From assembly GCF_004364865.1 (NCBI RefSeq), contig NZ_SOAU01000001.1:1426001-1490000 (forward strand): a stretch of 64,000 nucleotides of DNA, in the 5' to 3' direction. The position numbers and the translations under genes were made by a program. Positions 44,741-63,731 of this stretch are shown piece after piece. The stretch is from Ilumatobacter fluminis. Lineage in GTDB: Bacteria; Actinomycetota; Acidimicrobiia; Acidimicrobiales; Ilumatobacteraceae. Under the pieces are notes generated by a model. That model had not been told where the DNA came from. It saw only the letters and a program-made list of their open reading frames with translations, and did no database searches. The first letter of the stretch is position 1. Every line of letters begins with the position of its first letter.

Positions 44741-45283
44741 GCCGGTGAACGCGATCAGTTTGGTGACGGGGTCGGCGTCGTCGGCGACGTCGACACGGGG
44801 ACCGAAGTGGCCGCTCTGGCGGAGCATGGCGTCCATCGGGAGCATGCCGTCGTACATCCCGGCGGCGAAGTCCGCGTCGATCGACGCGTCCTGGCCCGTG
44901 GCTTTCGCCAGGTCCCACGTGTGGACCAGAACGTCGCCGGTCACGAAGCGTTCGGTGGCCACGCCGAGCGGCATCGCGCCGCCGAACATCTGACTCTCGA
45001 ACGTCTCCTGCTCGGCCTCGGGCCGGTCGAGGATCGCCTGGAGCTGATCTCGGAGCTCGGCCCAGGCAGCAGCCGGGTCGTCGTCGACGCTGGTCGTGAT
45101 CGTCATCGAATGATCGGTGCCCTCGCTCAGCCACCACGGCACCCACTCGACCAGGTGACGGACGACGTCGCGTGCCACCCACCCGTCGCACGGCGCCTCG
45201 GCGTTCCAGCCGTCGGGTCCGACGGCCTCGACCTTGGCGGTGAAATCGGCGGCGATCCGCCGGAAGGTCTCTGCCTGTTCCAT
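44729..45283 (-). CDS. TIGR03086-like DinB/MDMPI metal-binding protein
   Basis: A 184-residue protein from ATG 45283. FRRIAADFTAKVEAVGPDGWNAEAPCDGWVARDVVRHLVEWVPWWL has the CdGW.arDvvrHL motif with a metal-binding His. FVTGDVLVHTWDLAKATGQDASIDADFAAGMY has the second His (LVHTWDLA). This is the actinobacterial TIGR03086 pattern within the mycothiol-related MDMPI clan. The reaction is unknown. Confidence 0.85.
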   Translation of the reverse strand: MEQAETFRRIAADFTAKVEAVGPDGWNAEAPCDGWVARDVVRHLVEWVPWWLSEGTDHSMTITTSVDDDPAAAWAELRDQLQAILDRPEAEQETFESQMFGGAMPLGVATERFVTGDVLVHTWDLAKATGQDASIDADFAAGMYDGMLPMDAMLRQSGHFGPRVDVADDADPVTKLIAFTGRTP

Positions 45284-45594
45284 CGCACCATGATGCCGAC
45301 GAAGGGATGCCACGTCCAGATGTGGTTCAGCGGCTCGGGGGTCGTAGCGGTCGAGTCGCTCGTCGTGGGGTGGCAGGTCATTGTGGTTACTGATGGATCT
45401 TGTGATGGGTATCGGGGTGCGTTATGGGTCGTGGCTTGGTTTGCCGATCCGGGGTCAGGTGATCTCTGGTAACGGCTCGTTCCTCGCCGTCACCGACGAC
45501 ACCTGACCCCACGCGGTCCTCGCCGTCACCGACGACACCCGACCCCTCGGGGTCCTGTTGTCACGTTTCGGTCGTCGTGGTCGTCGGGGTGGGT
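45284..45594. other. 311-bp gene-free stretch with repeats
   Basis: No convincing gene. The left part is unremarkable; 45380-45450 is noticeably richer in G/T than the neighbours. A 60-bp palindromic element and a duplicated half of it fill 45451-45547. The promoter of the FAD oxidoreductase must lie in the last 50 bp. Confidence 0.6.
45451..45510 (+). repeat. 60-bp palindromic intergenic element, copy 1 (plus half copy to 45547)
   Basis: Ends GGGGTCAGGTG and CACCTGACCCC are perfect 11-bp inverted repeats; the centre reads GGTAACGGCTCGTTCCTCGC. The right half is repeated immediately at 45516-45544 (TCCTCGCCGTCACCGACGAC..). It is closest to copy 2 at 49702. Confidence 0.85.
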
Positions 45595-46854
45595 ATGGAA
45601 CGTGAGAAGGACACATTCGACGTCGTGGTGGTCGGGGGCGGGCTCGCCGGGCTGGTGGCGGCGGTCACCGCCGTGAACGCTGGGAGTTCGGTGGCGCTGC
45701 TCGACGCTCGTTCGTTCGGTGGTCGTGGCCGCTCGGTGAACCGAGATGGGTTCATCCTCAACGAGGGCGGGCACGCGCTCTACCGATGTGGTGGCGGCTG
45801 GGACGTGCTCACCTCGCTCGGCGTTCAGCCGCACGGCGTCACCCCGAACGCCGGGAGCTACCGAGTGCTGTGGCACGGCGAGGTCGCACCGCTGCCGACG
45901 ACTGCGAAGGGCATCCTGACGACACGCCTGCTCGGCGTTCGCTCGAAGGCGAAGTTCGCCGGCTGGTTCAACGACATGGCCGGCACCGCCCACAAGGCGG
46001 GCGACGTGAGCCTCGACCAGTGGATGGACGACCAGGGCACCCGCCCCGACCTGCGCACCATGCTCACGGCGCTCGGACGTCTCGTGACGTACGGCGCACG
46101 GCCGGGCGACATGCCGGCGTCGGCCGTGCTGGGCCAGTTCGCACTCGGCGGGGGAGTGGCGTATCTGCACGGCGGCTGGCAGTCGATCGTCGACGACCTG
46201 ACCGACCGTGCCAGAGCCGCCGGCGTCGCCCTGTTCGATCACACCACGGCGACCGGGCTGACCCACGACCGTGACGGCTGGACGGTCGCGACGCCCGATC
46301 ACACGATCGCCGGCGGTTCGGTCGTGCTCGCCTCCGGAGGTCCGCACGTGGCGGTGAACCTGCTCGGCGACGACCCGGCCGACTGGGTGGAGCGCGCCGG
46401 CCCGGCACTGCGGGCCTCGTGCCTCGACGTGGGCGGCACGCGGGGCGACCTCGACTTCTTGCAGGGCACCGACACCCCGATGTACCTGTCGCAGCACGCA
46501 CCGACGTCGCACACGGCGCCCGACGGTCAGTGGCTCTACTCGGTCATGCGGTACCTCGCCCCCGACGACGACTCGTCGGCCGACGAGAACCGGGCGGCGC
46601 TCGAACGTCACGCAGCGATCGCCGGGTTGCCGACGGGCGACGACCGGACGCTCGAGCGCTTCCTCGCAGCGTGCACGGTGACGTGGGGGAGCCCGCAGGT
46701 CGGCGTCGCGAGACCGACCGGCATGGAACTCGCCGATCGGGGCCTGTTCGCCGCCGGCGACTGGATCGGCAAGCCGCTGCTGGCCGACGCATCGCTCGTC
46801 AGTGGTGCGACCGCTGGTGCCGCAGCCGCGAAGCGTGCGATGGTGACCGTGTGA
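45595..46854 (+). CDS. FAD-dependent amine-oxidase/phytoene-desaturase-like oxidoreductase
   Basis: A 419-residue flavoprotein. The N-terminal FAD site is FDVVVVGGGLAGLVAAVTAVNAGSSVALLDARSFGGRGRSV. NEGGHALYRCGGGWDVLTSLGV resembles protoporphyrinogen oxidase and carotenoid desaturases. YLHGGWQSIVDDLTDRARAAGVALFDH is the middle signature, and GLFAAGDWIGKPLLADASLVSGATAGAAAAKRAM closes the FAD domain. The substrate is unknown. Its stop overlaps the start of an ECF41 sigma gene (GTGA), so they are an operon and the sigma factor probably controls this oxidoreductase. Confidence 0.85.
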   Translation: MEREKDTFDVVVVGGGLAGLVAAVTAVNAGSSVALLDARSFGGRGRSVNRDGFILNEGGHALYRCGGGWDVLTSLGVQPHGVTPNAGSYRVLWHGEVAPLPTTAKGILTTRLLGVRSKAKFAGWFNDMAGTAHKAGDVSLDQWMDDQGTRPDLRTMLTALGRLVTYGARPGDMPASAVLGQFALGGGVAYLHGGWQSIVDDLTDRARAAGVALFDHTTATGLTHDRDGWTVATPDHTIAGGSVVLASGGPHVAVNLLGDDPADWVERAGPALRASCLDVGGTRGDLDFLQGTDTPMYLSQHAPTSHTAPDGQWLYSVMRYLAPDDDSSADENRAALERHAAIAGLPTGDDRTLERFLAACTVTWGSPQVGVARPTGMELADRGLFAAGDWIGKPLLADASLVSGATAGAAAAKRAMVTV

Positions 46855-47738
46855 ACGGGGATCGGGTGAGCGACGTCTTCGAAGCAGCACGGGCCCGGCT
46901 CACCGGACGCGCCTACCGCATCGTCGGTTCGTTCGCCGACGCCGACGACGTCGTGCAGGAGGCGTGGCTCCGCTGGGACTCGGCCGACCAGGTCGAGATC
47001 GACAACGCAGACGCCTGGCTGAACACGGTCGTCTCCCGCCTTGCTATCGACCGGCTCCGTCAGCGCAAGCGGGACGAGGAGCGCTACACCGGCCCGTGGC
47101 TGCCGACACCGCTCGTCGAACGGTCGACCGACCCGGCCGACCTGGCCGAGCTCACCGATTCGATGACGTCGGCGTTCCTGATCATGCTCGAGGAACTCAC
47201 GCCCGACGAACGCGCCGCGTTCCTCCTCGCCGACGTGTTCGGCGACCGCTACGACTCGATCGCAGCGTCGATGGGGCGGACGCCCGAGTCGTGCCGCCAA
47301 CTCGCCAGCCGCGCTCGCCGGAAGGTGCGCGCCGCCGAGCAGCGTCGGCGGGATGCAACGGCGGCGTCGAACGACTTGGCACGCCGCTTCATCACCGCGC
47401 TGGCCACCGGCGACGAAGCCGAGGCGGTCCGCTGCCTGGCGCCGGAGGCGGTCTACCTGAGCGACGGCGGCCCCGACCATCGTGCGGCCCGGAGACCGGT
47501 GCGGGAGCCGGCGCGGATCGTCCGACTGCTGATGAACCTGTGGCGACGGTTTCCCGAGTCGTGGACGTTCGAACCGGCCCTCGTCGGTGGCTTTCCCGGG
47601 CTCGTCATCGAGATCGGCGACGAGGTCTCGTCGGTAACCGGCGTCGAAGTCGTCGACGGCCGGATCGTCCGCATCACCAGCATCCTCAACCCCGACAAGC
47701 TCGTCACCATGAACCGCCCCAGAAACACCCTGGAGTAG
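46851..47738 (+). CDS. ECF41-group (SigJ-like) sigma factor
   Basis: 295 residues from GTG 46851 (GTG 46866 is an alternative). Region 2 is ARARLTGRAYRIVGSFADADDVVQEAWLRWDSADQ...LNTVVSRLAIDRLRQ. The linker motif YTGPWLPTPL corresponds to the ECF41 WLPEP motif. Region 4 is LTPDERAAFLLADVFGDRYDSIAASMGRTPESCRQLASRARRKV. A SnoaL-like C-terminal domain ends with ILNPDKL, the ECF41 NPDKL motif. In this group the C-terminal domain itself regulates the sigma factor, without an anti-sigma protein. Usual partners are carboxymuconolactone decarboxylases or oxidoreductases; here it is the preceding flavoprotein. Confidence 0.92.
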   Translation: MNGDRVSDVFEAARARLTGRAYRIVGSFADADDVVQEAWLRWDSADQVEIDNADAWLNTVVSRLAIDRLRQRKRDEERYTGPWLPTPLVERSTDPADLAELTDSMTSAFLIMLEELTPDERAAFLLADVFGDRYDSIAASMGRTPESCRQLASRARRKVRAAEQRRRDATAASNDLARRFITALATGDEAEAVRCLAPEAVYLSDGGPDHRAARRPVREPARIVRLLMNLWRRFPESWTFEPALVGGFPGLVIEIGDEVSSVTGVEVVDGRIVRITSILNPDKLVTMNRPRNTLE

Positions 47739-47760
47739 CGACGCCGATACCGTGGCCGGC

Positions 47761-48567
47761 ATGACGATCGATGCCTGGGCGCAGCACCCCACGCTGCGGC
47801 ACGCGACCGACCCGATCTTCGACTCGCTCCGCCGGTGGACCCGCAGCGAGGCCCCGACCGAGGAGCTGCCGGTTTCGCTCACCGTCGGTGTGATGGACCA
47901 GGGCGGGGTCGACCAGGCACTCATCAGCGCCTGGTACAAGCCGAACGTCACGATGATCTCCAACGACGACGTCGCCGGGTTCGTCGAGCAGGCACCCGAT
48001 CGGCTCGTCGGCGTCGGCTCGGTCGACATCACCAAGCCGATGGACGCCGTGCGCGAGATCCGCCGCTGCGTCGACGAGCTCGGCTTCGCGGCCATCCGGG
48101 TGCTCCCGTGGCTGTGGGAGGTGCCGCCCACCGACGCCCGCTTCTACCCGATCTACGCCACGTGCGTGGAGCTCGACGTGCCCTTCTGCACCCAGATCGG
48201 CCACACCGGCCCGCTCATGTCGTCCGAGGTCGGGCGGCCGATCTACCTCGACCGGGTGGCGCTCGACTTCCCCGAGCTGCGCATCGTCGCCGGCCACATC
48301 GGCTACCCCTGGACCGACGAGGCAATCGCCGTCGCGACCAAGCACGAGAACGTCTTCATCGACACGTCTGCCTACACAGCGAAGCGGTACCCGTCGCAGC
48401 TCGTCGACTACCTGCGCTCCAATGGGCGCACCAAGGTCCTGTTCGGCACGAACTACCCGATGATCACGCCGGCCAAGTGTCTCGAACACCTCGACGACCT
48501 GGGTCTCGACGACGAGACCCGCCGGCTGTTCCTCCACGACAACGCCGCCCGCGTCTTCAAGCTCTGA
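47761..48567 (+). CDS. Amidohydrolase-2 family protein
   Basis: A 268-residue TIM-barrel metal-dependent hydrolase. MDQGGVDQALISAWYKPN, VGVGSVDITKPMDAVREIRRCVDELGFAAIRVLPWLWEVPPTDARFYPIYATCVELDVPFCTQIGHTGP, RIVAGHIGYPWTDEAIAVA and LFGTNYPMITPAKCLE correspond to the amidohydrolase_2 (ACMSD-like) landmarks, including the barrel His and the late Asp/Asn position. The usual N-terminal DxHxH is not obvious (MTIDAWAQH), so the metal site may be reduced. Decarboxylase or hydrolase function remains open. Confidence 0.85.
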   Translation: MTIDAWAQHPTLRHATDPIFDSLRRWTRSEAPTEELPVSLTVGVMDQGGVDQALISAWYKPNVTMISNDDVAGFVEQAPDRLVGVGSVDITKPMDAVREIRRCVDELGFAAIRVLPWLWEVPPTDARFYPIYATCVELDVPFCTQIGHTGPLMSSEVGRPIYLDRVALDFPELRIVAGHIGYPWTDEAIAVATKHENVFIDTSAYTAKRYPSQLVDYLRSNGRTKVLFGTNYPMITPAKCLEHLDDLGLDDETRRLFLHDNAARVFKL

Positions 48568-48598
48568 CGCGACCGGGAGCGTCGCTTAGGTTGGTCGC

Positions 48599-49315
48599 AT
48601 GCGGATCGACGTGATCGACCAGCCCGACGCCGAGGTGCCGGCCCGTCCGGCGGCGACGTTGGTGCTGGTGCGGGACGGCGACGGCGAACTCGAGGTGCTC
48701 ATGATCCATCGGGGCGCCGAGACCGCGTTCGGTGGGATGTGGGCGTTCCCCGGCGGCGGCATCGAGGACGACGACATCCCCGCCGGAACCGAGCCCGACC
48801 CGCTGCCGGCGGCCCGCCGTGCGGCGGTGCGCGAGACCCAGGAGGAGATCTCGCTGACGGTCGATCCCGACTCGCTCGTGTTCTGGAGCCACTGGCTCCC
48901 GCCGGGCAAGAACGCCCTCTCGCCGAAGCGGTACTCGACCTGGTTCTTCGTCGCGGAAGCGCACGACGGCCACGCCGACCACGTCATCGACGTCGACGGC
49001 AACGAGGTGCACGCCCACCAGTGGGTTCCACCGGCCGTCGCCCTCCACATGCAGGAACGCGGCGAGATCCTCATCGCCCCGCCCACCTACGTCACCCTCA
49101 CCCAACTCGCCCGCTACGGCGACGTGGTATCAGCACTGGCTGCCGCCGATCCTCGCTACTTCGCCACCCACATGCTGATGGACGGTGATACCCGGCTCTG
49201 CCTCTGGGAGGGCGACGCCGCGTACGGCCTCGACGACCACACGATCGACGGGCCTCGCCACCGGCTCGCGATGGACGAGGTCAACGGGTGGCGCTACTTC
49301 AACACCGTCGGGTGA
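48599..49315 (+). CDS. Nudix hydrolase (NUDT19-like)
   Basis: A 238-residue Nudix protein. RPAATLVLVRDGDGELEVLMIHRGAETAFGGMWAFPGGGIEDDD leads into a Nudix box whose loop is longer than usual, then REtQEEI (RAAVRETQEEI). The C-terminal part (FWSHWLPPGKNALSPKRYSTWFFVAEA...NEVHAHQWVPPAVALHMQERGEILIAPPTYVTL) matches the NUDT19/CoA-diphosphatase-like branch. It probably hydrolyses CoA derivatives or another nucleoside diphosphate compound. Confidence 0.88.
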   Translation: MRIDVIDQPDAEVPARPAATLVLVRDGDGELEVLMIHRGAETAFGGMWAFPGGGIEDDDIPAGTEPDPLPAARRAAVRETQEEISLTVDPDSLVFWSHWLPPGKNALSPKRYSTWFFVAEAHDGHADHVIDVDGNEVHAHQWVPPAVALHMQERGEILIAPPTYVTLTQLARYGDVVSALAAADPRYFATHMLMDGDTRLCLWEGDAAYGLDDHTIDGPRHRLAMDEVNGWRYFNTVG

Positions 49316-49329
49316 GGCAGAATCGTCCC

Positions 49330-49686
49330 ATGTCGACCGCGTCCATCCGCTCCCGCTGGTCGGTCGGATCGATCGACTCGGTCGCCTCGGTCGGATCCAT
49401 CCGTTCGCTGAACTCTGCAGGGTCGATCCTGTCGATCGGTTCGGCGGGTTCGATCCTCTCCATCGGTTCGGCCGGCTCGATCCTGTCGATCGGTTCGGCC
49501 GGCTCGATCCTGTCGATCGGTTCGGCCGGCGGCATCCTGAGCCACTGCACCGACGGCGAGATGCTGCACGCCAACGGGGAGCGGATGACCGCCGCCCAGG
49601 TCGTCCGACATGTCGCCGTGCTGGCCGCCGCCGGCGTCGCCGTGGCGGCGCTGGTGTCGGTGGCGGCCGAGCTCCTGACCGACTGA
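49330..49686 (+). CDS. Small protein with SIGSAGSIL nonapeptide repeats and a C-terminal hydrophobic segment
   Basis: A 118-residue protein from ATG 49330. Residues about 8-75 are tandem nonapeptides, SIGSAGSIL or variants (SVGSIDSVA, SVGSIRSLN), about seven units, encoded by 27-bp DNA repeats. The regular small/beta-branched pattern suggests a thin beta-solenoid or fibre. A short polar linker (HCTDGEMLHANGERMTAAQ) is followed by a hydrophobic segment (VVRHVAVLAAAGVAVAALVSVAAELL) that could anchor it in the membrane. I do not recognise a named family. It follows the Nudix gene by 14 bp. Confidence 0.7.
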   Translation: MSTASIRSRWSVGSIDSVASVGSIRSLNSAGSILSIGSAGSILSIGSAGSILSIGSAGSILSIGSAGGILSHCTDGEMLHANGERMTAAQVVRHVAVLAAAGVAVAALVSVAAELLTD

Positions 49687-49701
49687 GTCCGTTGCGGAGC
49701 C

Positions 49702-49761
49702 GGGGTCAGGTGATCTCCGGTAACGGCTCGTTCCTCGCCGTCACCTGCGACACCTGACCCC
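49702..49761 (+). repeat. 60-bp palindromic intergenic element, copy 2
   Basis: The same 60-bp length, orientation and centre as copy 1, with only a few differences (e.g. ACCTGCGAC for ACCGACGAC). It lies between the convergent nonapeptide-repeat and L,D-transpeptidase genes, so it may serve as their terminator. Confidence 0.85.
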
Positions 49762-49773
49762 ATGGGGGTGTCT

Positions 49774-50595
49774 TTAGCTGCGGAGGGAGTCGGTGGGGCC
49801 GATGGCGAAGTGGGGGTTCAGCCTCGGGTCGATGAGGCGAAGGGTGGCCACGAGGTCGTCGTACTGGAGCGACACGCAGCCGCTCGTCGGCTTCGGGACG
49901 CCGTTCGAGTAGTAGCTGTAGCGGTGCAGGAAGATCGCCGCCGCGTACGGGATCTCACCGGGCTCGTCGCCCGAGATCGGGTCGAGGTTGGCGCCGATCA
50001 CGGCGGCGTGCGAGTACGACTCGGTGATGCCGGCCAGCCATTCGTCGTCGGGACCGGGGCAGCGGTAGTCGTTCACCAGGTGCTGGTACCTCGCCGTGTT
50101 CTTGGTGGCACCCCAGCAGTCCTCCGGCTTCACGTCGCGGTAGGGGACCAGCACGCCGGGGTCGGCCGAGTTGCCGAACATCGAGAACACCTCGCCGTCC
50201 CACGCCGTCACCTCACCGAGCGGGAACACGCCGGCCGGCGTCGTCCCGTCGCCCGACCGCCGGTCGATCAGCGGCCGGGTGCCCGACCGTCCGTACATCG
50301 CATCCATCGCGCCCAACTGGCAGAGCCAGGTGCCACCCTCGCCGCGGGCGGCGACCTCGACCGTCCCGGTCGTGTCGCCCCAGTCGTCGGTCGCCATGAC
50401 GATGAACTGGTCGACGTCGGGATGGTCGGCCGAGAGCGCCTCGACCGTCGTCAGGTCGCACTCGGCGGCCGGGTCGTGCTGCACTCCGCGATCGGCCACT
50501 TCGGTCGCCTCGGCACCGGAGCCCGCCTCGAACGCATCGGTGACCGCTCCCCACACCGCGGCGATCGCAGCAACGACGAGGGCAACCAAGCGCAT
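49774..50595 (-). CDS. L,D-transpeptidase family protein (YkuD-like)
   Basis: A 273-residue exported protein. The N-terminal hydrophobic segment MRLVALVVAAIAAVWGAVTDA is a signal peptide or anchor. The core has QLGAMDAMYGRSGTRPLIDRRSGDGTTPAGVFPLGEV and the catalytic pattern IFLHRYSYYSNGVPKPTSGCVSLQYDDL, with Cys240 in TSGCVSL and a preceding His. The type resembles bacterial YkuD/ErfK enzymes that act on peptidoglycan. It may make 3-3 cross-links or attach molecules to the wall. Confidence 0.85.
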   Translation of the reverse strand: MRLVALVVAAIAAVWGAVTDAFEAGSGAEATEVADRGVQHDPAAECDLTTVEALSADHPDVDQFIVMATDDWGDTTGTVEVAARGEGGTWLCQLGAMDAMYGRSGTRPLIDRRSGDGTTPAGVFPLGEVTAWDGEVFSMFGNSADPGVLVPYRDVKPEDCWGATKNTARYQHLVNDYRCPGPDDEWLAGITESYSHAAVIGANLDPISGDEPGEIPYAAAIFLHRYSYYSNGVPKPTSGCVSLQYDDLVATLRLIDPRLNPHFAIGPTDSLRS

Positions 50596-50691
50596 CCGCC
50601 CAGCCTACGGACCGAAGCCTCACGACCCGGGTCGCCCGCGAAACGAGTCTGACTCGGCCCGGCTCCGGCGACGGTGCTACACAGCACCTCT

Positions 50692-52311
50692 ATGGGGAAT
50701 GTGGGGAACTGGAATTTCGCTGATCTGTGGGAGGTCGTCGCCGACGAGCTGCCCGACGCACCGGCCGCGATCCACGGTGATCGACGGATCACCTGGGCCG
50801 ACTTCGACCGACGTGCCGACGGCGTCGCCAAGACGCTGCTCGACGCCGGACTCGAACGGCAGCAGGCGTTCGCGCAGTACCTCTACAACTGTCCCGAGTA
50901 CATGGAGTCGATGTTCGCCGGCTTCAAGGGAGCGTTCGTCCCGGTCAACACGAACTACCGCTACACCGCCGACGAGCTGCTCTACCTGTGGGACAACGCG
51001 GACGCCGGCGCCGTCGTGTTCCACGGCTGCTTCGTCGACACGATCGACCCGATTCGCGAGCAACTCCCGAAGGTGAAGGTCTGGCTCTGGGTCGACGACG
51101 GATCGGGCCCGTGCCCCGACTGGGCCATGCCGTACGAGGACGCCGCCGCATCGGCCACCGAGCGCACGATCCCCGACTGGGGACGCACCGGCGACGATCT
51201 CAACATGCTCTACACCGGCGGCACGACCGGCATGCCGAAAGGCGTCATGTGGCGCCAGGACGATCTCGCCGTCGTGCTCACCGCGACCCTCGGCAACCCA
51301 CTCTCCGACGAGGGATCGGCCGCCGACCGGCGCGGCACCTACAACCAGCCGGGACGCAGCTTCCTGCCGGCGTGCCCGCAGATGCACGGCACCGGCAACT
51401 TCCCCGGCCTGTCGGCACTGACCGATGGCGGCTGCATCGTGACCCTCACCGACCGCCACTTCGACCCGGTCGAACTGCTCGACACGATCGAACGCGAAGG
51501 TGTCAACGTCATCTCGATCGTCGGCGACGCGTTCGGTAAGCCGATCCTCAAGGCGCTCGACGCCAACCGCGGGCGCTGGAACCTCGCCAGCCTCGTCGGC
51601 ATCACCTCGAGCGGCGTGATGTGGTCGAAGGAAGTGAAGCAGGGCCTGCTCGACCACCACCCCAACATGCTCCTGCTCGACGCCTTCTCCTCGAGCGAGG
51701 CGCTCGGTATGGGCTCGTCGATCTCGGGCATGGGCCAGACCGCCGAGACCGCCAAGTTCGAACTCACCGAGAACTCGATCGTCATCGACGAGAACGACGA
51801 ACCGATCGCCGCCGGTTCGGGCGAGATCGGCCGCCTGGCCGTCGGCGGTCGTCAGCCACTCGGCTACTACAAGGACCCGGAGAAGTCGGCCCGTACCTTC
51901 CTCCACATCAACGGTGGGCGGTACTCGTGCCCGGGCGACTTCGCCACCGTCGAGGACGACGGCACGATCACCCTGCTCGGCCGCGGCTCGGTGTGCATCA
52001 ACACCGGTGGCGAGAAGGTCTTCCCCGAGGAAGTCGAAGAGGCTTTGAAGCGGCACCCGGCGGTGCTCGACGCCGTGGTCGTCGGCGTGCCCGACGAGAA
52101 GTTCGGTGAGGCCGTCACCGGCGTGGTCGAACCCCGCGAGGGCGAGTCGATCGACGAGTCGGCGCTGATCGCGCACGTCCGCGAAACCCTCGCCGCCTAC
52201 AAGAGCCCGAAGCGGATCGTCGTCGTCGACACGATCGGCCGGGCCCCCAACGGCAAGGTCGACTACAAGCGCCTCAAGGCCGAAGCCACCGAAACCCTCG
52301 GGGTCTCGTAG
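50692..52311 (+). CDS. Acyl-CoA synthetase (FadD-like)
   Basis: A 539-residue ANL ligase. NFADLWEVVADELPDAPAAIHGDRRITWADFDRRADGVAKTLLDAG is the usual start. The P-loop is MLYTGGTTGMPKGVMWR. LLDAFSSSEALGMGSS replaces the YGxTE motif, DPEKSARTFLHINGGRYSCPGDFATVEDDG holds the hinge Asp, and LGRGSVCINTGGEKVFPEEVEEALKRHP and PNGKVDYKRLK complete the domain. The GGEKVFPEEVE form is common in actinobacterial steroid/fatty acyl-CoA synthetases such as FadD19-like enzymes. It activates a fatty or sterol-derived acid. GTG 50674 is an alternative start. Confidence 0.9.
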   Translation: MGNVGNWNFADLWEVVADELPDAPAAIHGDRRITWADFDRRADGVAKTLLDAGLERQQAFAQYLYNCPEYMESMFAGFKGAFVPVNTNYRYTADELLYLWDNADAGAVVFHGCFVDTIDPIREQLPKVKVWLWVDDGSGPCPDWAMPYEDAAASATERTIPDWGRTGDDLNMLYTGGTTGMPKGVMWRQDDLAVVLTATLGNPLSDEGSAADRRGTYNQPGRSFLPACPQMHGTGNFPGLSALTDGGCIVTLTDRHFDPVELLDTIEREGVNVISIVGDAFGKPILKALDANRGRWNLASLVGITSSGVMWSKEVKQGLLDHHPNMLLLDAFSSSEALGMGSSISGMGQTAETAKFELTENSIVIDENDEPIAAGSGEIGRLAVGGRQPLGYYKDPEKSARTFLHINGGRYSCPGDFATVEDDGTITLLGRGSVCINTGGEKVFPEEVEEALKRHPAVLDAVVVGVPDEKFGEAVTGVVEPREGESIDESALIAHVRETLAAYKSPKRIVVVDTIGRAPNGKVDYKRLKAEATETLGVS

Positions 52312-52322
52312 TCACTGCGAGC

Positions 52323-52382
52323 CGGGTCGGGTGATCTCCGGAAACGTCGACTCCGTCGCCGTTCCCTACGACACCCGACCCG
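52323..52382 (+). repeat. 60-bp palindromic intergenic element, copy 3
   Basis: Ends CGGGTCGGGTG / CACCCGACCCG with centre GGAAACGTCGACTCCGTCGC (subtype B). It contains the stop codon (52366-52368) and last codons of the WYL regulator gene. Copy 4 is its reverse complement at 58 of 60 positions. Confidence 0.88.
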
Positions 52383-53340
52383 TGTTGGTGGACAGGTTGC
52401 GCACGGCGTCGGTGAGCCTCGTCCTGACCTCGGGCGGAGCGTCGACCACGTCGACGGTGAAGCTGGTCGCGAGGATCGCGACCATGCCGGCGAGCCACTC
52501 GAGCGATTCTGCCGTCAAGCGCATCCTCGTCCGCCCGTCGGGCTGGGCGGTGAGGTCGCCTCGGAACCAGTGCGCCAGCCGATCGATCTCGTCGGGCTGA
52601 CCACCGAGCACGACGACCGCCTCGTGCTGTTCGGTCACCGCCCGGAGGCCGGCCGCCACGAAATCAGCGGCACTCTCCCCGGGCAGCGCCAGCTCGTCGA
52701 AGCGAGCCCCGGCCAGCTGCGGCTCGACCATCCGGTCGACCCGGAAGGTCCGCCAGTCCTCGCGGCGGCAATCCCACGCCACGAGATACCAGCGATGTCC
52801 GACCGACACGAGCTGGTACGGACGGACGAGACGGCTCGACTCCTCACCGTCCTTGCGGGTGTACCCGAACCGCACCTCCTCGCGGTCACGGCACCCCTGC
52901 GCGAGCACCGTCAACCACGCCGCCCGCACCGTCTGCTGCGGCACCCACCGCAACACCTCCACGTTCGAGTGGAGGGCGTCCACCCGCCGGCGCAACCGAT
53001 CGGGCAACACCTGATCGAGCTTCGCAAGCAACCGCACCGTCGTCTCGTCGATGCCCTCGATCGATGCACCTGCAGCAGCCCGCAGCCCGACCGACAAGGC
53101 AACGGCCTCGTCCTCGTCGACCAACAACGGCGGCACCGCCGCCCCGGCAGCCAGCTGATACCCACCGTCGACGCCCGGCGCCGCATCGACCCGGTACCCC
53201 AACTCGCGCAACCGGTCGACATCGCGCCGCACCGTCCGCGCGCTCACCCCGAGACGATCGGCGAGCTCGATACCCGACCAGAAGCGGTGGGTCTGGAGCA
53301 AGGCCAACAGGGCGAGCGTGCGGGCGGTCGGGTCGCTCAT
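52366..53340 (-). CDS. HTH-WYL transcriptional regulator (YafY-like)
   Basis: A 324-residue regulator from ATG 53340. The N-terminal HTH is RTLALLALLQTHRFWSGIELADRLGVSARTVRRDVDRLRELGYRVDAAPGVDGGYQLAAG, the HTH_11/DeoR type. The WYL domain is VRFGYTRKDGEESSRLVRPYQLVSVGHRWYLVAWDCRREDWRTFRVDRM, and a WCX-like C-terminus follows. Its start overlaps the ABC permease stop (ATGA), so the regulator is in the exporter operon it probably controls. The final residues (GRVS) and stop come from the 60-bp palindromic element. Confidence 0.9.
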   Translation of the reverse strand: MSDPTARTLALLALLQTHRFWSGIELADRLGVSARTVRRDVDRLRELGYRVDAAPGVDGGYQLAAGAAVPPLLVDEDEAVALSVGLRAAAGASIEGIDETTVRLLAKLDQVLPDRLRRRVDALHSNVEVLRWVPQQTVRAAWLTVLAQGCRDREEVRFGYTRKDGEESSRLVRPYQLVSVGHRWYLVAWDCRREDWRTFRVDRMVEPQLAGARFDELALPGESAADFVAAGLRAVTEQHEAVVVLGGQPDEIDRLAHWFRGDLTAQPDGRTRMRLTAESLEWLAGMVAILATSFTVDVVDAPPEVRTRLTDAVRNLSTNTGRVS

Positions 53341-54140
53341 CCGCGGCGCACCCTCCCTCGCAACGCCGCCATGCACATCGACATGCTCAGCGCACCGACG
53401 GCGACGATCGCCACCACGGCCCACAACACGTCGACCGTCCAGCCGTCGATCGCCAGCGCACGCATCCCCTCGAGGATGTACGTGACCGGGTTGAACGTCG
53501 CAACGACGTCGAGCCAACCCGACAACTGCTCACGAGGGACGTACGACGTCGTCAGGAACAGGAACGGGAAGAACAGCAGGAACATCGACTGCACCGCCGC
53601 CGGATTGCCCGTCTTGAGCGCCACCGCATAGCCGAACCCGGCGAACGCCAGGCTCCAGAACGCCGCCGCCGAGATGAACACGACGACGCCGATCACCCCC
53701 GTCTCGAAGCCGGCACCGAGGATCAGCCCGAGCACGAGGATCGGCACGGTCAGGCACGCGGCGACGAACACGTCGGCGACGAGATGACCGAGCAGGATCG
53801 CGCTCCGCTTCATCGGCGTCATCAGCAGTCGGTCGAAGTAGCCGTTCTGCACGTCGAGCACCAGGGCAGGCGCTCGCGACACACCGGTCACTCCGAGCAG
53901 GATCGCGGTCGGCATCTGGAACGCCGTGTAGTCGAACCCGCCGATCGCTCCCTCGGTCAGTCGTTCGAGCGTGGCGATGTTCACCACGAAGAAGAAGATC
54001 GCGATGAACACCGGCGGGATGACCGCCTCGAGGTCGCGTGGCACGGCCCGCAGAGCGCGGCCCGCGATGGTCGTCACGTCGTGCACGAATCCGGTCGGTC
54101 GGGCACGGATGGTGGACGGGGTCGTCGAGATCGCGGTCAT
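53337..54140 (-). CDS. ABC-2 type transporter permease (DrrB-like)
   Basis: A 267-residue, six-helix membrane protein from ATG 54140. RDLEAVIPPVFIAIFFFVVNIATLERL, GFDYTAFQMPTAILLGVTGVSRAPALVLDVQNGYFDRLLMTPMKRSAILLGHLVADV and FLLFFPFLFLTTSYVPREQLSGWLDVVATFNPVTYILEGMRAL carry the ABC-2 'NPvty' pattern. Together with the ATPase it forms a daunorubicin-resistance-type exporter for lipophilic compounds. Confidence 0.9.
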   Translation of the reverse strand: MTAISTTPSTIRARPTGFVHDVTTIAGRALRAVPRDLEAVIPPVFIAIFFFVVNIATLERLTEGAIGGFDYTAFQMPTAILLGVTGVSRAPALVLDVQNGYFDRLLMTPMKRSAILLGHLVADVFVAACLTVPILVLGLILGAGFETGVIGVVVFISAAAFWSLAFAGFGYAVALKTGNPAAVQSMFLLFFPFLFLTTSYVPREQLSGWLDVVATFNPVTYILEGMRALAIDGWTVDVLWAVVAIVAVGALSMSMCMAALRGRVRRG

Positions 54141-55177
54141 CGCGCCGCTCCTTCCTGCTCGTCGTGTGCGTGCTCGAACTCGTCGTGCTGCATCCGGTTG
54201 CCGGTCATCTCGAGGAACACGTCGTCGAGCGTCGGCGTGCGCAGCGTGAGGTCGCGCAACTCGACCCCGGCGTCGGCCAGCGCCACGGCGACCGGACCGA
54301 CCTTGGCGGCACCGTGCGTCGTGGCGAGCACCAACTCGCCGTCGGTCGCGTCGACTACCTCGAGATCGTCGATCGACTCGACCGCTGCCACCGCATCGGA
54401 CGCGGCCCCGTCGATGCGGGCGATCACCAGGTCGGCGCCGACCTGTCGCTTCAGTTCGGCCGGCGTGCCTTCGGCCACCAGACGGCCACCGTCGATGATG
54501 CCGACCCGATGGGCCAACACGTCGGCCTCCTCCAGGTACTGGGTGGTGAGCAGGATCGTCATGCCCAGCTGTTCGTTCAACGTTCGCACCTCGTCCCACA
54601 CCCTCGCCCGGCTCACCGGGTCGAGGCCGGTGGTCGGCTCGTCGAGGAACAACACGTCGGGGTTGTGTACCAGCGCCGCTGCCAGATCGAGCCGGCGGCG
54701 CATCCCGCCCGAGTAGGTACCGATCGGACGCTCGATCGCCTCGCCCAGATCGATCATCTGCGTCAGGTCGGCGACGCGTCGGTCGACCTCGTCGCGGTGC
54801 AACCCGTAGAGGCGGCCCTGCAGTCGGAGCAACTCGATGCCGGACTGCTTCGGGTCGAGCGCAGCCTCCTGGAGCGCCGCTCCGATGCGGAGGCGGACCT
54901 CGTTCGGCTGCTCGGTGACGTCGAAGCCGGCCACGGTGGCCGAACCGCCCGTCGGCCCGAGCAGGGTGCAGAGCATGCGGACGGTCGTCGACTTGCCGGC
55001 ACCGTTGGGGCCGAGCAAGCCGTAGATCTCGCCGGTCCGGATCTCGAGATCGATCCCGGCGACGGCGTCGAACTCGCCGAAGCGTCGAGCGAGCCCGCTG
55101 GTGGTGATGGCGGCAGTGCCTGGTGGCGCCGCCGACGGGGACTGCTGGGTGGTGGTGTGCATGTCCACATCGTCCAC
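54137..55177 (-). CDS. ABC transporter ATP-binding protein (DrrA-like)
   Basis: A 346-residue ATPase from GTG 55177 (ATG 55162 possible). Walker A is LLGPNGAGKSTTVRML, the signature is YSGGMRRRLDLAAALVH, Walker B is VLFLDEPTTGLDP, the switch region is TILLTTQYLEEADVLAHR, and the C-terminal DrrA-type extension ends TLDDVFLEMTGNRM. It powers the adjacent permease. The three genes ATPase-permease-WYL overlap by 4 bp each. Elements 3 and 4 of the 60-bp family bracket the operon. Confidence 0.93.
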   Translation of the reverse strand: MDDVDMHTTTQQSPSAAPPGTAAITTSGLARRFGEFDAVAGIDLEIRTGEIYGLLGPNGAGKSTTVRMLCTLLGPTGGSATVAGFDVTEQPNEVRLRIGAALQEAALDPKQSGIELLRLQGRLYGLHRDEVDRRVADLTQMIDLGEAIERPIGTYSGGMRRRLDLAAALVHNPDVLFLDEPTTGLDPVSRARVWDEVRTLNEQLGMTILLTTQYLEEADVLAHRVGIIDGGRLVAEGTPAELKRQVGADLVIARIDGAASDAVAAVESIDDLEVVDATDGELVLATTHGAAKVGPVAVALADAGVELRDLTLRTPTLDDVFLEMTGNRMQHDEFEHAHDEQEGAAR

Positions 55178-55215
55178 CCTATTGCGGCCAGATCATGACC
55201 GTGATCAAGAAGAAC

Positions 55216-55275
55216 CGGGTCGGGTGTCGTCGGGAACGGCGACGGAGTCGACGTTTCCGGAGATCACCCGACTCC
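55216..55275 (-). repeat. 60-bp palindromic intergenic element, copy 4
   Basis: The reverse complement of copy 3 with 2 mismatches over 60 bp. It lies upstream of the ABC operon, 39 bp from the ATPase start. Confidence 0.88.
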
Positions 55276-55294
55276 GGTGATGACGGTGCGAGCG

Positions 55295-55358
55295 CGGGTC
55301 GGGTGATCTCCCGAAACGCCTCGGCTGCGCCTCGGCGTTCCGTCCGACACCCGACCCG
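55295..55358 (+). repeat. Palindromic intergenic element, copy 5 (64 bp)
   Basis: Ends CGGGTCGGGTG / CACCCGACCCG with a different centre (CGCCTCGGCTGCGCCTCGGC). It lies 19 bp from copy 4 and 26 bp from the proS stop, so it could terminate proS. Confidence 0.82.
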
Positions 55359-62882: not shown

Positions 62883-63656
62883 ATGCGGATGATCTCGTAC
62901 ATGTCGCCCGGGTTCCCCGAGGCGCTGTTCGAGGCCGTCGGCGCTGCGGTGGGAGCGACGGTCGACTTCGACAGCCGCACCTCCGGGCCGGCGCCCGGCG
63001 CCGATCCGTTCCGAGATGGCACCTACGACCTCGGGTGGGTGTGCTCGACCTCGTTCGTCGATCTCTCGCTGCGCAGCGAGGCGCCCTCGGTGCAGCTCGC
63101 CGGGGTCGGCTGGGTGCCCACCGATCCGGATGCCGGCGGCCGGCCGGTCTATTTCGGCGACGTCGTCGTTCGGCCGGATCATCCGGCCGTCGCACTCGCC
63201 GACCTGCGCCACTGCCGGATCGGCTGCAACGACGTCGTCAGCCTGAGCGGCTACTACGCCCTACGCCACGCGATCACCGAAAGCGGCGACGACCCGGCGA
63301 CGTTCGCCGAGCTCGTGTTCACCGGAGGCCATCACGCGTCGCTCGACGCGCTGGTGCAGGGCGAGCTCGATGCCGCCGTCGTCGATTCGGTCGTCCGGAC
63401 CGGCCGGGCCCGTCACGACGCCGGCGTCGACGGGTTGCGTGTCATCGATCGGCTCGGCCCCTGGCCCGTGCAACCGCTCGTCGCTCGTGCCGGCCTCGAT
63501 CCGTCCGCCGTCGCGGAGATGCAGGCGGCCGTCTTGGCCCTGAACGACGATCCGGTCGTGCGGGCGATCCTCGCCGACGCCGCGCTCGACCGCTTCGTCG
63601 CCACCACCCCCGACCACTACGCCCCGGTCCACGCCGCCTTCGCCCCCGTCGGTTGA
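62883..63656 (+). CDS. PhnD-like phosphate/phosphonate-type binding protein without signal peptide
   Basis: A 257-residue type II periplasmic-binding fold. MRMISYMSPGFPEALFEAVGAAVG, YDLGWVCSTSFVDLSLRSEAPSVQLAGVGWVPTDPDAGGRPVYFGDVVVRPDHPAVALADLRHCRIGCNDVVSLSGYYALRHAITE, and HHASLDALVQGELDAAVVDSVV are PhnD/SsuA-like blocks. There is no signal peptide or lipobox and no transporter genes beside it, so it probably acts inside the cell as a ligand-binding protein. The last codons (VG) and stop are within a palindrome. Confidence 0.78.
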   Translation: MRMISYMSPGFPEALFEAVGAAVGATVDFDSRTSGPAPGADPFRDGTYDLGWVCSTSFVDLSLRSEAPSVQLAGVGWVPTDPDAGGRPVYFGDVVVRPDHPAVALADLRHCRIGCNDVVSLSGYYALRHAITESGDDPATFAELVFTGGHHASLDALVQGELDAAVVDSVVRTGRARHDAGVDGLRVIDRLGPWPVQPLVARAGLDPSAVAEMQAAVLALNDDPVVRAILADAALDRFVATTPDHYAPVHAAFAPVG

Positions 63657-63731
63657 TGTCAGACATCAACCGACCGACCGATCGTCGGGCTGCCCGCGAC
63701 CTGGTCGGTTGATGTCTGACATCAACCGACG
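63647..63731. repeat. Twin palindromes upstream of clpP
   Basis: A 29-bp unit with core GGTTGATGTCAGACATCAAC occurs at 63647-63675 and, exactly inverted, at 63703-63731, 27 bp apart. Each unit is itself a palindrome (11-bp stem TCGGTTGATGT). Copy 1 includes the stop of the PhnD-like gene; copy 2 ends 57 bp before the clpP start. Confidence 0.85.

Follow-up and report, generated by a model that had tools for sequence, protein, structure and literature searches.

A REP/REPIN-like family of palindromic elements in Ilumatobacter fluminis, probably spread by a single RAYT-type transposase

We found that the short palindromic elements in a 64,000-nucleotide stretch of the Ilumatobacter fluminis genome (the window) belong, with a probability that we put at about 0.88, to a REP/REPIN family spread by the single RAYT-type Y1/HUH transposase of this genome. 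Judged from sequence comparison, about 118 hairpin-forming pieces would very probably have been copied by one domesticated transposase gene that lies amid the same repeat. The system is thus of the REP/REPIN type, a kind already known, and its host belongs to a little-studied bacterial group. The original prediction had proposed a REP/MITE-like mobile family, to be checked by a genome-wide count, a search for a RAYT-type transposase and a comparison of orthologous gaps; it is now backed by 118 copies, by a RAYT gene located between copies of the element, and by orthologous gaps that differ among relatives.

Copies in the window and across the genome

All five copies predicted in the window were recovered, and its first 45 kb contain none. 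The first (45452-45509, plus strand, 58 bp, type A with GGGTCAGGTG tips) lies between the divergent gene starts at 45283 (minus strand) and 45577 (plus strand), and is followed in direct tandem by a right-half copy or REP singlet (45517-45545, plus strand, 28 of 29 bases identical), which is of the same kind as the half copies adjoining the RAYT gene. The second (49703-49760, plus strand, 58 bp, type A) is placed between the convergent gene ends at 49686 (plus strand) and 49774 (minus strand), and recurs unchanged at genome positions 112933, 274895 and 2822672. The third (52324-52381, plus strand, 58 bp) is of type B, with GGGTCGGGTG tips and a GGAAACG stem; it has an identical copy at genome position 2158447, and its TAG at 52368-52366 serves as stop codon for the gene called on the minus strand at 52366-53340. 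The last two, also of type B, form an inverted pair: 55217-55274 (minus strand, 58 bp) and 55296-55357 (plus strand, 62 bp), the latter with a CGAAACG stem and a CTCGGCTGCGCCTCG centre. The lengths of 60 and 64 bp initially assigned to the copies each included one extra flanking base per side, and the common ends are exact in four copies only, as one tip of the 55217 copy is mutated (GAGTC for GGGTC). The two centre subtypes first described are in fact three: GGTAACGGCTCG at 45452 and 49703, GGAAACGTCGAC at 52324 and 55217, and CGAAACGCCTCGG at 55296.

The two-tip pattern that defines the family (GGGTCRGGTG...CACCYGACCC) has 118 exact-ended matches in the 4.78-Mb genome against none for the reversed pattern, so the family is not due to chance. 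In keeping with a REP/REPIN family, overlap with called genes stays below 10% for 107 of 117 copies, and the median distance to a flanking stop is 26 bp, compared with 120 bp to a start. Pairs less than 130 bp apart number 17 where 0.52 would be expected, and every one is inverted. It is plausible that the family is still spreading: identical twins exist elsewhere in the genome for 50 of 116 copies, although gene conversion would produce such twins as well as recent copying. The clustering in the window itself is unremarkable: it holds four exact-ended copies in 10 kb, the densest 10 kb of the genome holds seven, and when 116 copies were placed at random, at least four fell within some 10 kb in 90 of 500 trials and at least five in seven of 500.

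Element structure and the transposase

The copies are imperfect palindromes of 58-64 bp with invariant tips, compensatory changes in both stems, and one bulged A that is invariant in all 116 copies. Covariation was assessed in 55 of 117 copies, of which 36 are distinct. Changes on both sides were counted in 46 cells, compared with 18.7 after shuffling and at most 2 when slid, and two of the five measures were not above the shuffles. The single-strand folds predicted for seven copies are stable, with z between -2.7 and -8.8. Only one of 116 copies has GTRG within six bases of the foot, and the family therefore lacks the tag that RAYTs usually recognize; CGTC occurs there in 20 of 116. Given these foot tetranucleotides, we do not assign the elements to the GTAG or CGTC REP superfamilies (PMC3733652). 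We also rejected a half-element hairpin as the REP unit, as no conservation between types A and B was visible by eye. Within the window, Rfam yielded no match at gathering score.

A PF01797 search of the one-contig genome returned a single match, a RAYT-type Y1/HUH transposase gene outside the window (C1:4552074-4552889). It is flanked by full copies of the element on both sides and by half copies, of which two lie upstream and three downstream; the 3' end of the coding sequence extends into the downstream copy. The protein, of about 272 aa, scores 30.7 bits against Pfam Y1_Tnp (cut-off 23) and 53.4 bits against NCBIfam REP_Tyr_transpos, under that model's cut-off of 80. The best solved structure for the family profile is TnpA-REP (4er8, E 8e-4), and a single-sequence search of solved structures gave irrelevant matches only. 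The HUH, catalytic Tyr and following Asn that characterize RAYTs (TnpA-REP, Y1 HUH) are present, and an alignment of 17 sequences shows no variation at H59, H61, Y118 and N122; we take the roles of these residues from the available text of PMC6006769 and PMC8266576. In the C-terminal extension of about 130 aa, a Pfam search to E 1 found no HTH family, Y1_Tnp being the only family above cut-off. A search of genome contigs revealed no close RAYT relatives in named genomes. Across 18 RAYT loci tested (those of relatives and the present one), 16 have a flanking inverted repeat of their own, compared with 2 of 33 shifted controls. The elements combine three of the features by which REP/REPIN families are recognized: high-copy extragenic palindromes, inverted ends around a variable hairpin, and a RAYT flanked by the same repeats.

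In the mechanism that we propose, the two tips would be inverted REP units joined by the variable hairpin-forming centre. In single-stranded DNA, such as that of the lagging strand, the element would fold into a 10-bp stem with the bulged A and an inner stem, and the asymmetric bulge and internal loop would show which strand is read. We infer that the RAYT encoded at C1:4552074-4552889 binds this hairpin, cuts it with the catalytic Tyr and rejoins the element at another site, and that surviving insertions would lie mostly just behind genes.

Relative to replication, the copies are oriented 65 against 51 (p 0.23), an absence of bias that runs against a strict lagging-strand target, though a palindrome may escape such a constraint. 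Contig position 1 was rejected as the replication origin because dnaA was matched at about 4.681 Mb.

Sister species and alternative readings

Among 61 relatives examined, 4 have the family, as does 1 of 395 genomes in a sample of the class, and two sister species, G003 and G004, carry 67 and 39 copies, respectively. As anticipated for a mobile family, the orthologous gaps differ between sisters: at every one of four window sites some sister species lacks the element, and three of these sites have a family copy in another sister, the fourth holding an unrelated REP pair there. At the 52324 site of G003 the gap is about 35 bp and empty. The only RAYT hits in G003 and G004 are about 34% identical, have no tips of the present family nearby, and lie between other repeats; as these assemblies are 79-81% complete and, at the orthologous RAYT locus, their contigs end within the array of half copies, the RAYT of the present family may or may not be present in the two species.

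It is possible, though we regard it as doubtful, that the elements are instead terminal inverted repeats, those of a one-time transposon and of the MITEs derived from it, so that the pair is the moving unit, with two 60-bp palindromic ends facing inward and enclosing either a short spacer or the gene for the RAYT, and solo copies are relics. This reading overlaps the REP/REPIN one, and their odds do not add to 1. Of the 17 close pairs, 14 have the inward orientation of the copies around the RAYT. A conserved spacer of about 54 bp is further common to type A pairs; it is matched by 30 flanks of 116 copies (both partners counted), all on the inner (AYC) side. In some spacers the opening nine bases, GGGATCGGT, recur beside the upstream copy at the RAYT locus, a weak sign. 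However, 83 of 116 copies lie outside close pairs, as counted by exact tips, which would miss decayed partners; a copy can be there or missing on its own, as is the case of 52324 and its empty G003 gap; and the four type B pairs compared have no common spacer. The published TIRYT end motif GGGGWSAS also argues against this reading, fitting only 7 of 116 copies.

Under a second and very unlikely alternative, the elements would be ancient functional sites under selection (terminators, mRNA-end hairpins, or sites for a host DNA-binding protein) and their link with the RAYT would be secondary. Besides the stable predicted folds, their gene setting could be seen in this light: copies lie near stop codons, and those between convergent genes outnumber the ones between divergent genes (34 versus 11). 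Yet a position near stop codons is also the least harmful place for an insertion, and the empty or otherwise occupied orthologous gaps, the narrow distribution among relatives and the identical twins at other loci all speak against ancient sites. The notion that the elements are maintained as terminators found no support, as the only intrinsic terminator-like site (GC stem then T run) in the 11 kb searched, at 53129-53143, is not at an element. Finally, palindromic ends and intergenic scatter do resemble a MITE moved by an unrelated insertion sequence of the DDE type that bears GGGTC ends, but the tips bracket the only Y1 transposase gene found, and we consider this origin highly improbable.

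Relation to known REP systems

As far as the available text of PMC3116915 describes them, the REPINs of Pseudomonas fluorescens SBW25 resemble the present family in their conserved inverted ends, variable hairpin centre, compensatory changes, intergenic location and tie to a RAYT, as well as in their higher-order clusters and singlet remnants. The GGGTCRGGTG tips and the single invariant bulged A differ from what is described there. The host phylum, which we take to be Actinomycetota, is a further difference. TIRYT/TIRtrons (subclass 2.1), in the portions of PMC3733652 and PMC6006769 consulted, share a Y1 protein with a long C-terminal extension, a gene bracketed by inverted repeats, and repeats that are partly self-complementary and often dimers. 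The C-terminal HTH described as typical of TIRYT is not confirmed by Pfam in the present RAYT, and we do not claim membership, as GGGGWSAS fits so few copies of the family and, at the RAYT gene, occurs only downstream; the motif had looked attractive on two window copies before the genome-wide count. The REP/BIME system of E. coli with TnpA-REP, according to the accessible parts of PMC8266576 and PMC6006769, likewise has one RAYT gene with REPs on both sides, an imperfect palindrome with a conserved bulge, and inverted pairs. Unlike it, the present family has no GTAG foot, the REP unit lies inside one continuous 58-64-bp palindrome, and the RAYT is about 272 aa long compared with 165 aa for TnpA-REP (4er8). 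Among the matches listed in open-licence PMC, judged from titles and the beginnings of abstracts, none was relevant to RAYT, REPIN or repetitive extragenic palindromes in Actinobacteria, Acidimicrobiia or Ilumatobacter.

RAYTs are described, in the text available from PMC8049555, as domesticated transposases that are inherited vertically and have no known host function. The genome holds two further REP families; genes for their RAYTs were found in sister species alone, and clustering around dnaA is significant only for the family that kept its RAYT. We tentatively suggest, as a long shot, that three REP families occur in all three sister species, the RAYT of each being found in a different one, and that in the one-contig genome only the RAYT-keeping family, as opposed to the two orphan ones, is concentrated around the replication origin and the RAYT locus. 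RAYT-driven copying might then be local or origin-biased, REP populations might outlive their transposase, and the bulged A with a YCAGR-like core might serve as the recognition mark of this bacterial group in place of the GTAG tag. To our knowledge, the bench-tested RAYT systems in the cited literature are those of gamma-proteobacteria. Here, one complete genome of another phylum carries three REP families and one RAYT, with the RAYTs of the other two in sister species, so that near relatives allow REP populations to be compared with and without their enzyme, and the system permits a test of what stands in for the GTAG recognition tag.

Anatomy, number and placement of the palindromic family

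The five window copies of the palindromic element (family 1) were confirmed in existence and position, and the genome-wide count advised by the original prediction gave 118 matches to GGGTCRGGTG N25-55 CACCYGACCC in the single contig of I. fluminis (C1; 4,775,416 bases, of which C1:1426001-1490000 form the window), with 0 for the reversed pattern used as control. The surroundings of 117 copies were read in stretches that, once merged, number 72, span 333 kb and include the window; oriented lists hold 116 of the 118 copies, and figures with n=116 omit the one of these 117 that is without an AYC side. Copies measure 58 bp (55 copies), 62 bp (36), 64 bp (21) or other lengths (five), and the starting tip of the oriented copies carries A in 52 and G in 64. 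There are also half copies, at window 45517-45545 and beside the transposase gene.

In the orientation that puts the AYC side to the left, the tip GGGTCRGGTG is followed by a bulged A, by two base pairs in which YC faces GR, by a small internal loop and by an inner stem; next comes the centre, of which there are several kinds, and the mirror image completes the element. The bulged A at position 11 is invariant (116/116), position 12 is T in 88 copies and C in 28 (partner A in 89, G in 27), and tip pair 6 is G-C in 61/116, A-T in 48/116 and a mismatch or wobble in 7/116. Covariation was counted on the 58-bp copies only (55, of which 36 are distinct): 88.7% of cells are paired versus 82.8% after shuffling. 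Both sides have changed in 46 cells versus 18.7 in the shuffles, of which 0 of 500 reach 46; two of the five measures, pairs changed and pair types, stay within the shuffled range (reached by 185/500 and 309/500). Because kinship among copies inflates such counts, the stronger control is to slide the columns by 1-3, which leaves at most 2 both-side changes. Folded as single-stranded DNA, the five copies in the window and the two beside the transposase gene gave z values of -2.7 to -8.8.

By simple codon-usage gene calling, independent of any annotation, 107 of the 117 copies have an overlap below 10% with called genes and 7 one of more than half; five lie inside called genes, and the same calls make 88% of the 333 kb coding. 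Gaps holding copies are tandem (67), convergent (34) or divergent (11), and the distance to a flanking stop has a median of 26 bp (79/135 within 50 bp), that to a flanking start a median of 120 bp (18/89 within 50 bp). The minus-strand gene ending at window 52366 takes its stop codon from an element (overlap 52366-52381), and the end of the transposase gene, too, falls within the copy downstream of it.

Neighbours less than 130 bp apart form 17 pairs, versus 0.52 expected, and comprise 33 of 116 copies. Every pair is inverted: in 14 the AYC sides face each other (-/+ order), and 3 have the other order; widening the cut to 250 bp adds one direct pair. A conserved spacer of ~54 bp, roughly GGGRYSGGTGCGCG...CACAGGAYCCC, lies between inverted copies of tip type A (for example near C1:29752-29928 and 121318-121499). 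It matches 30 flanks among the 116 copies, both partners of a pair counted, always on the AYC side and with an A-tip copy adjoining in 29/30.

The RAYT-type gene and the clustering of copies

A search for a RAYT-type transposase, also proposed originally, was successful: the Y1_Tnp model found one such gene, at C1:4552074-4552889 (locus L016:1465-2280), between family-1 copies. Upstream lie two half copies and one full copy; downstream, a full copy overlaps the gene end and is followed by three half copies. The tandem half copies (L016 1275-1410 and 2263-2422) have periods of 36 bp and 32 bp. The protein scores 30.7 bits against Pfam Y1_Tnp (cut-off 23) and 53 bits against NCBIfam REP_Tyr_transpos, under the cut-off of 80. 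Homologues are present in 13 of 61 genomes, I. fluminis included, with 21 hits; locus tests were run without the fragments L073, L074 and L079, and the protein alignment of 17 members also without the broken L068. H59, H61, Y118 and N122 are invariant in this alignment, for whose profile the best solved structure is TnpA-REP (4er8, E 8e-4); further transposase chains, of IS200/IS605 type, come next (E 0.04-0.28).

An inverted repeat spans the gene at 16 of 18 loci, I. fluminis included, versus 2 of 33 shifted controls; L068, one of the two misses, does have one, its arms (1401-1438 and 2304-2341) falling within the stretch taken as gene. A YCAGR core, a motif picked post hoc once the arms had been seen, is readable in 13 of 16 printed arms versus 4.3 in simple letter shuffles (0/1000 reach 13).

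Family-1 copies are concentrated at C1:4.08-4.78 and 0-0.5 Mb, round the dnaA match (~4.681 Mb) and the RAYT locus. When exact-ended, hence well-preserved, copies up to 5 kb apart are merged into 72 clusters, 36 are found no more than 0.6 Mb from dnaA versus 18.1 expected (p 7e-6). As 37 lie equally close to the RAYT gene, the two centres are inseparable.

Turnover in relatives and two further REP families

Among the 61 genomes the family-1 pattern is confined to one genus, with 118 matches in I. fluminis and 67, 39 and 2 in its relatives G003, G004 and G005, and is absent from the other 57; among 395 genomes sampled from the class, whose sole members of the genus are I. fluminis and G009, only I. 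fluminis has it. Orthologous sites were compared by flank BLAST and reading of the sequence. At site 45452 a family copy stands at the right flank in G004, but there is none in G003. Site 49703 is occupied in G004 by a copy whose centre differs; G003 and G009 lack a copy, and the contig of G005 carries other sequence. For 52324, the element is missing from a gap of ~35 bp in G003, G004 carries an REP pair unrelated to it, and G005 carries other sequence. For 55217-55357, a single type A copy followed by other sequence is seen in G003; the element is absent from G004, which has other sequence, and from G005, which has a short gap. The element is thus missing in at least one relative at all four sites, a check that the original prediction had proposed, and three of the sites have a family copy in a different relative at, or close to, the corresponding junction: the window sites show turnover plus inheritance, as expected of a slow mobile family.

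At the orthologous RAYT place in G004 (contig C11) and G003 (contig C259), the contigs break within half-copy arrays, so that these two genomes may also hold the gene; the G004 array has a period of ~23 bp and G003 has a similar one. No family-1 tips occur near the other RAYT hits of these two genomes.

The REP at the 52324 site in G004 is GTCGGTTGRGGTCWGACCYCAWCCGAC (family 2), which flanks both sides of the G004 RAYT gene L068, itself carrying an internal stop. Its hits number 46 forward and 47 reverse in I. fluminis (merged into 66 sites), 64 and 66 in G004, and one in either direction in G003; an inverted pair of a variant, GTCGGTTGATGTCWGACATCAACCGAC, unrelated to family 1, lies at window 63648-63674 and 63704-63730. 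Round the G003 RAYT gene L070 lies AGAWGGGGTCAGGCACCTTCTG (family 3), with 55+46 hits in I. fluminis, 53+49 in G003 and 15+12 in G004; the cognate RAYT was found only in the sister genome G003. With 100 of the 101 exact I. fluminis hits entered, family 3 forms 38 pairs in +/- order, 37 spaced 55-62 bp and 1 at 98 bp (example site C1:6273-6350). Neither family is significantly concentrated within 0.6 Mb of dnaA (family 2, 11/30 versus 7.5 expected, p 0.15; family 3, 14/51 versus 12.8, p 0.75), and family 1 compares with family 3 at p 0.015, with family 2 at p 0.28 and with both at p 0.02; these comparisons, too, cover exact-ended copies only. No second RAYT gene turned up in I. fluminis with the Y1_Tnp model or in a search with the RAYT protein that admitted E values up to 1e-5, and the genome therefore has three REP families and one RAYT. 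For E. coli, more REPINs are described in genomes with a RAYT than in those without, which still keep many (PMC8049555).

Place among known systems

Two REP superfamilies are described with GTAG or CGTC tags (PMC3733652); compared with that description, family 1 is without either as a family feature. GTRG stands at the foot of 1/116 copies, and CGTC lies beyond a tip, no more than six bases away, in 20/116, possibly above the level set by GC-rich sequence. The base before the element is C in 104/116 copies (99/116 at -2), and the base after it is G in 107/116.

Inverted repeats bracket the family-1 RAYT gene, as they do the genes of TIR-associated tyrosine transposases (TIRYTs). GGGGWSAS, the end motif that TIRYTs share, nevertheless matches only 7/116 copies (in the window those at 45452 and 49703, whose tips are preceded by G), and assignment to TIRYTs was dropped on this count. 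Genes of subclass 2.1, probably the TIRYTs, are described as having no nearby REP-like sequences (PMC6006769).

RAYT/TnpA-REP proteins are reported, for three tested systems, to cut and rejoin single-stranded REP hairpins (PMC8266576). Family 1 and its gene have in common with such systems the catalytic residues, scatter with turnover, cognate repeats next to the gene, and a palindrome that is imperfect; its asymmetry, due to the bulged A and an internal loop of unequal sides, would mark one strand. Among open-licence PMC papers we found no report of such systems in the host's bacterial group. An identical twin elsewhere in the genome exists for 50 of 116 copies, which fits recent copying, though gene conversion would equally give twins. 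By analogy with the described systems, the RAYT protein very probably binds, cuts and copies the family-1 hairpins, and family 1 with its RAYT works like a REPIN-RAYT system.
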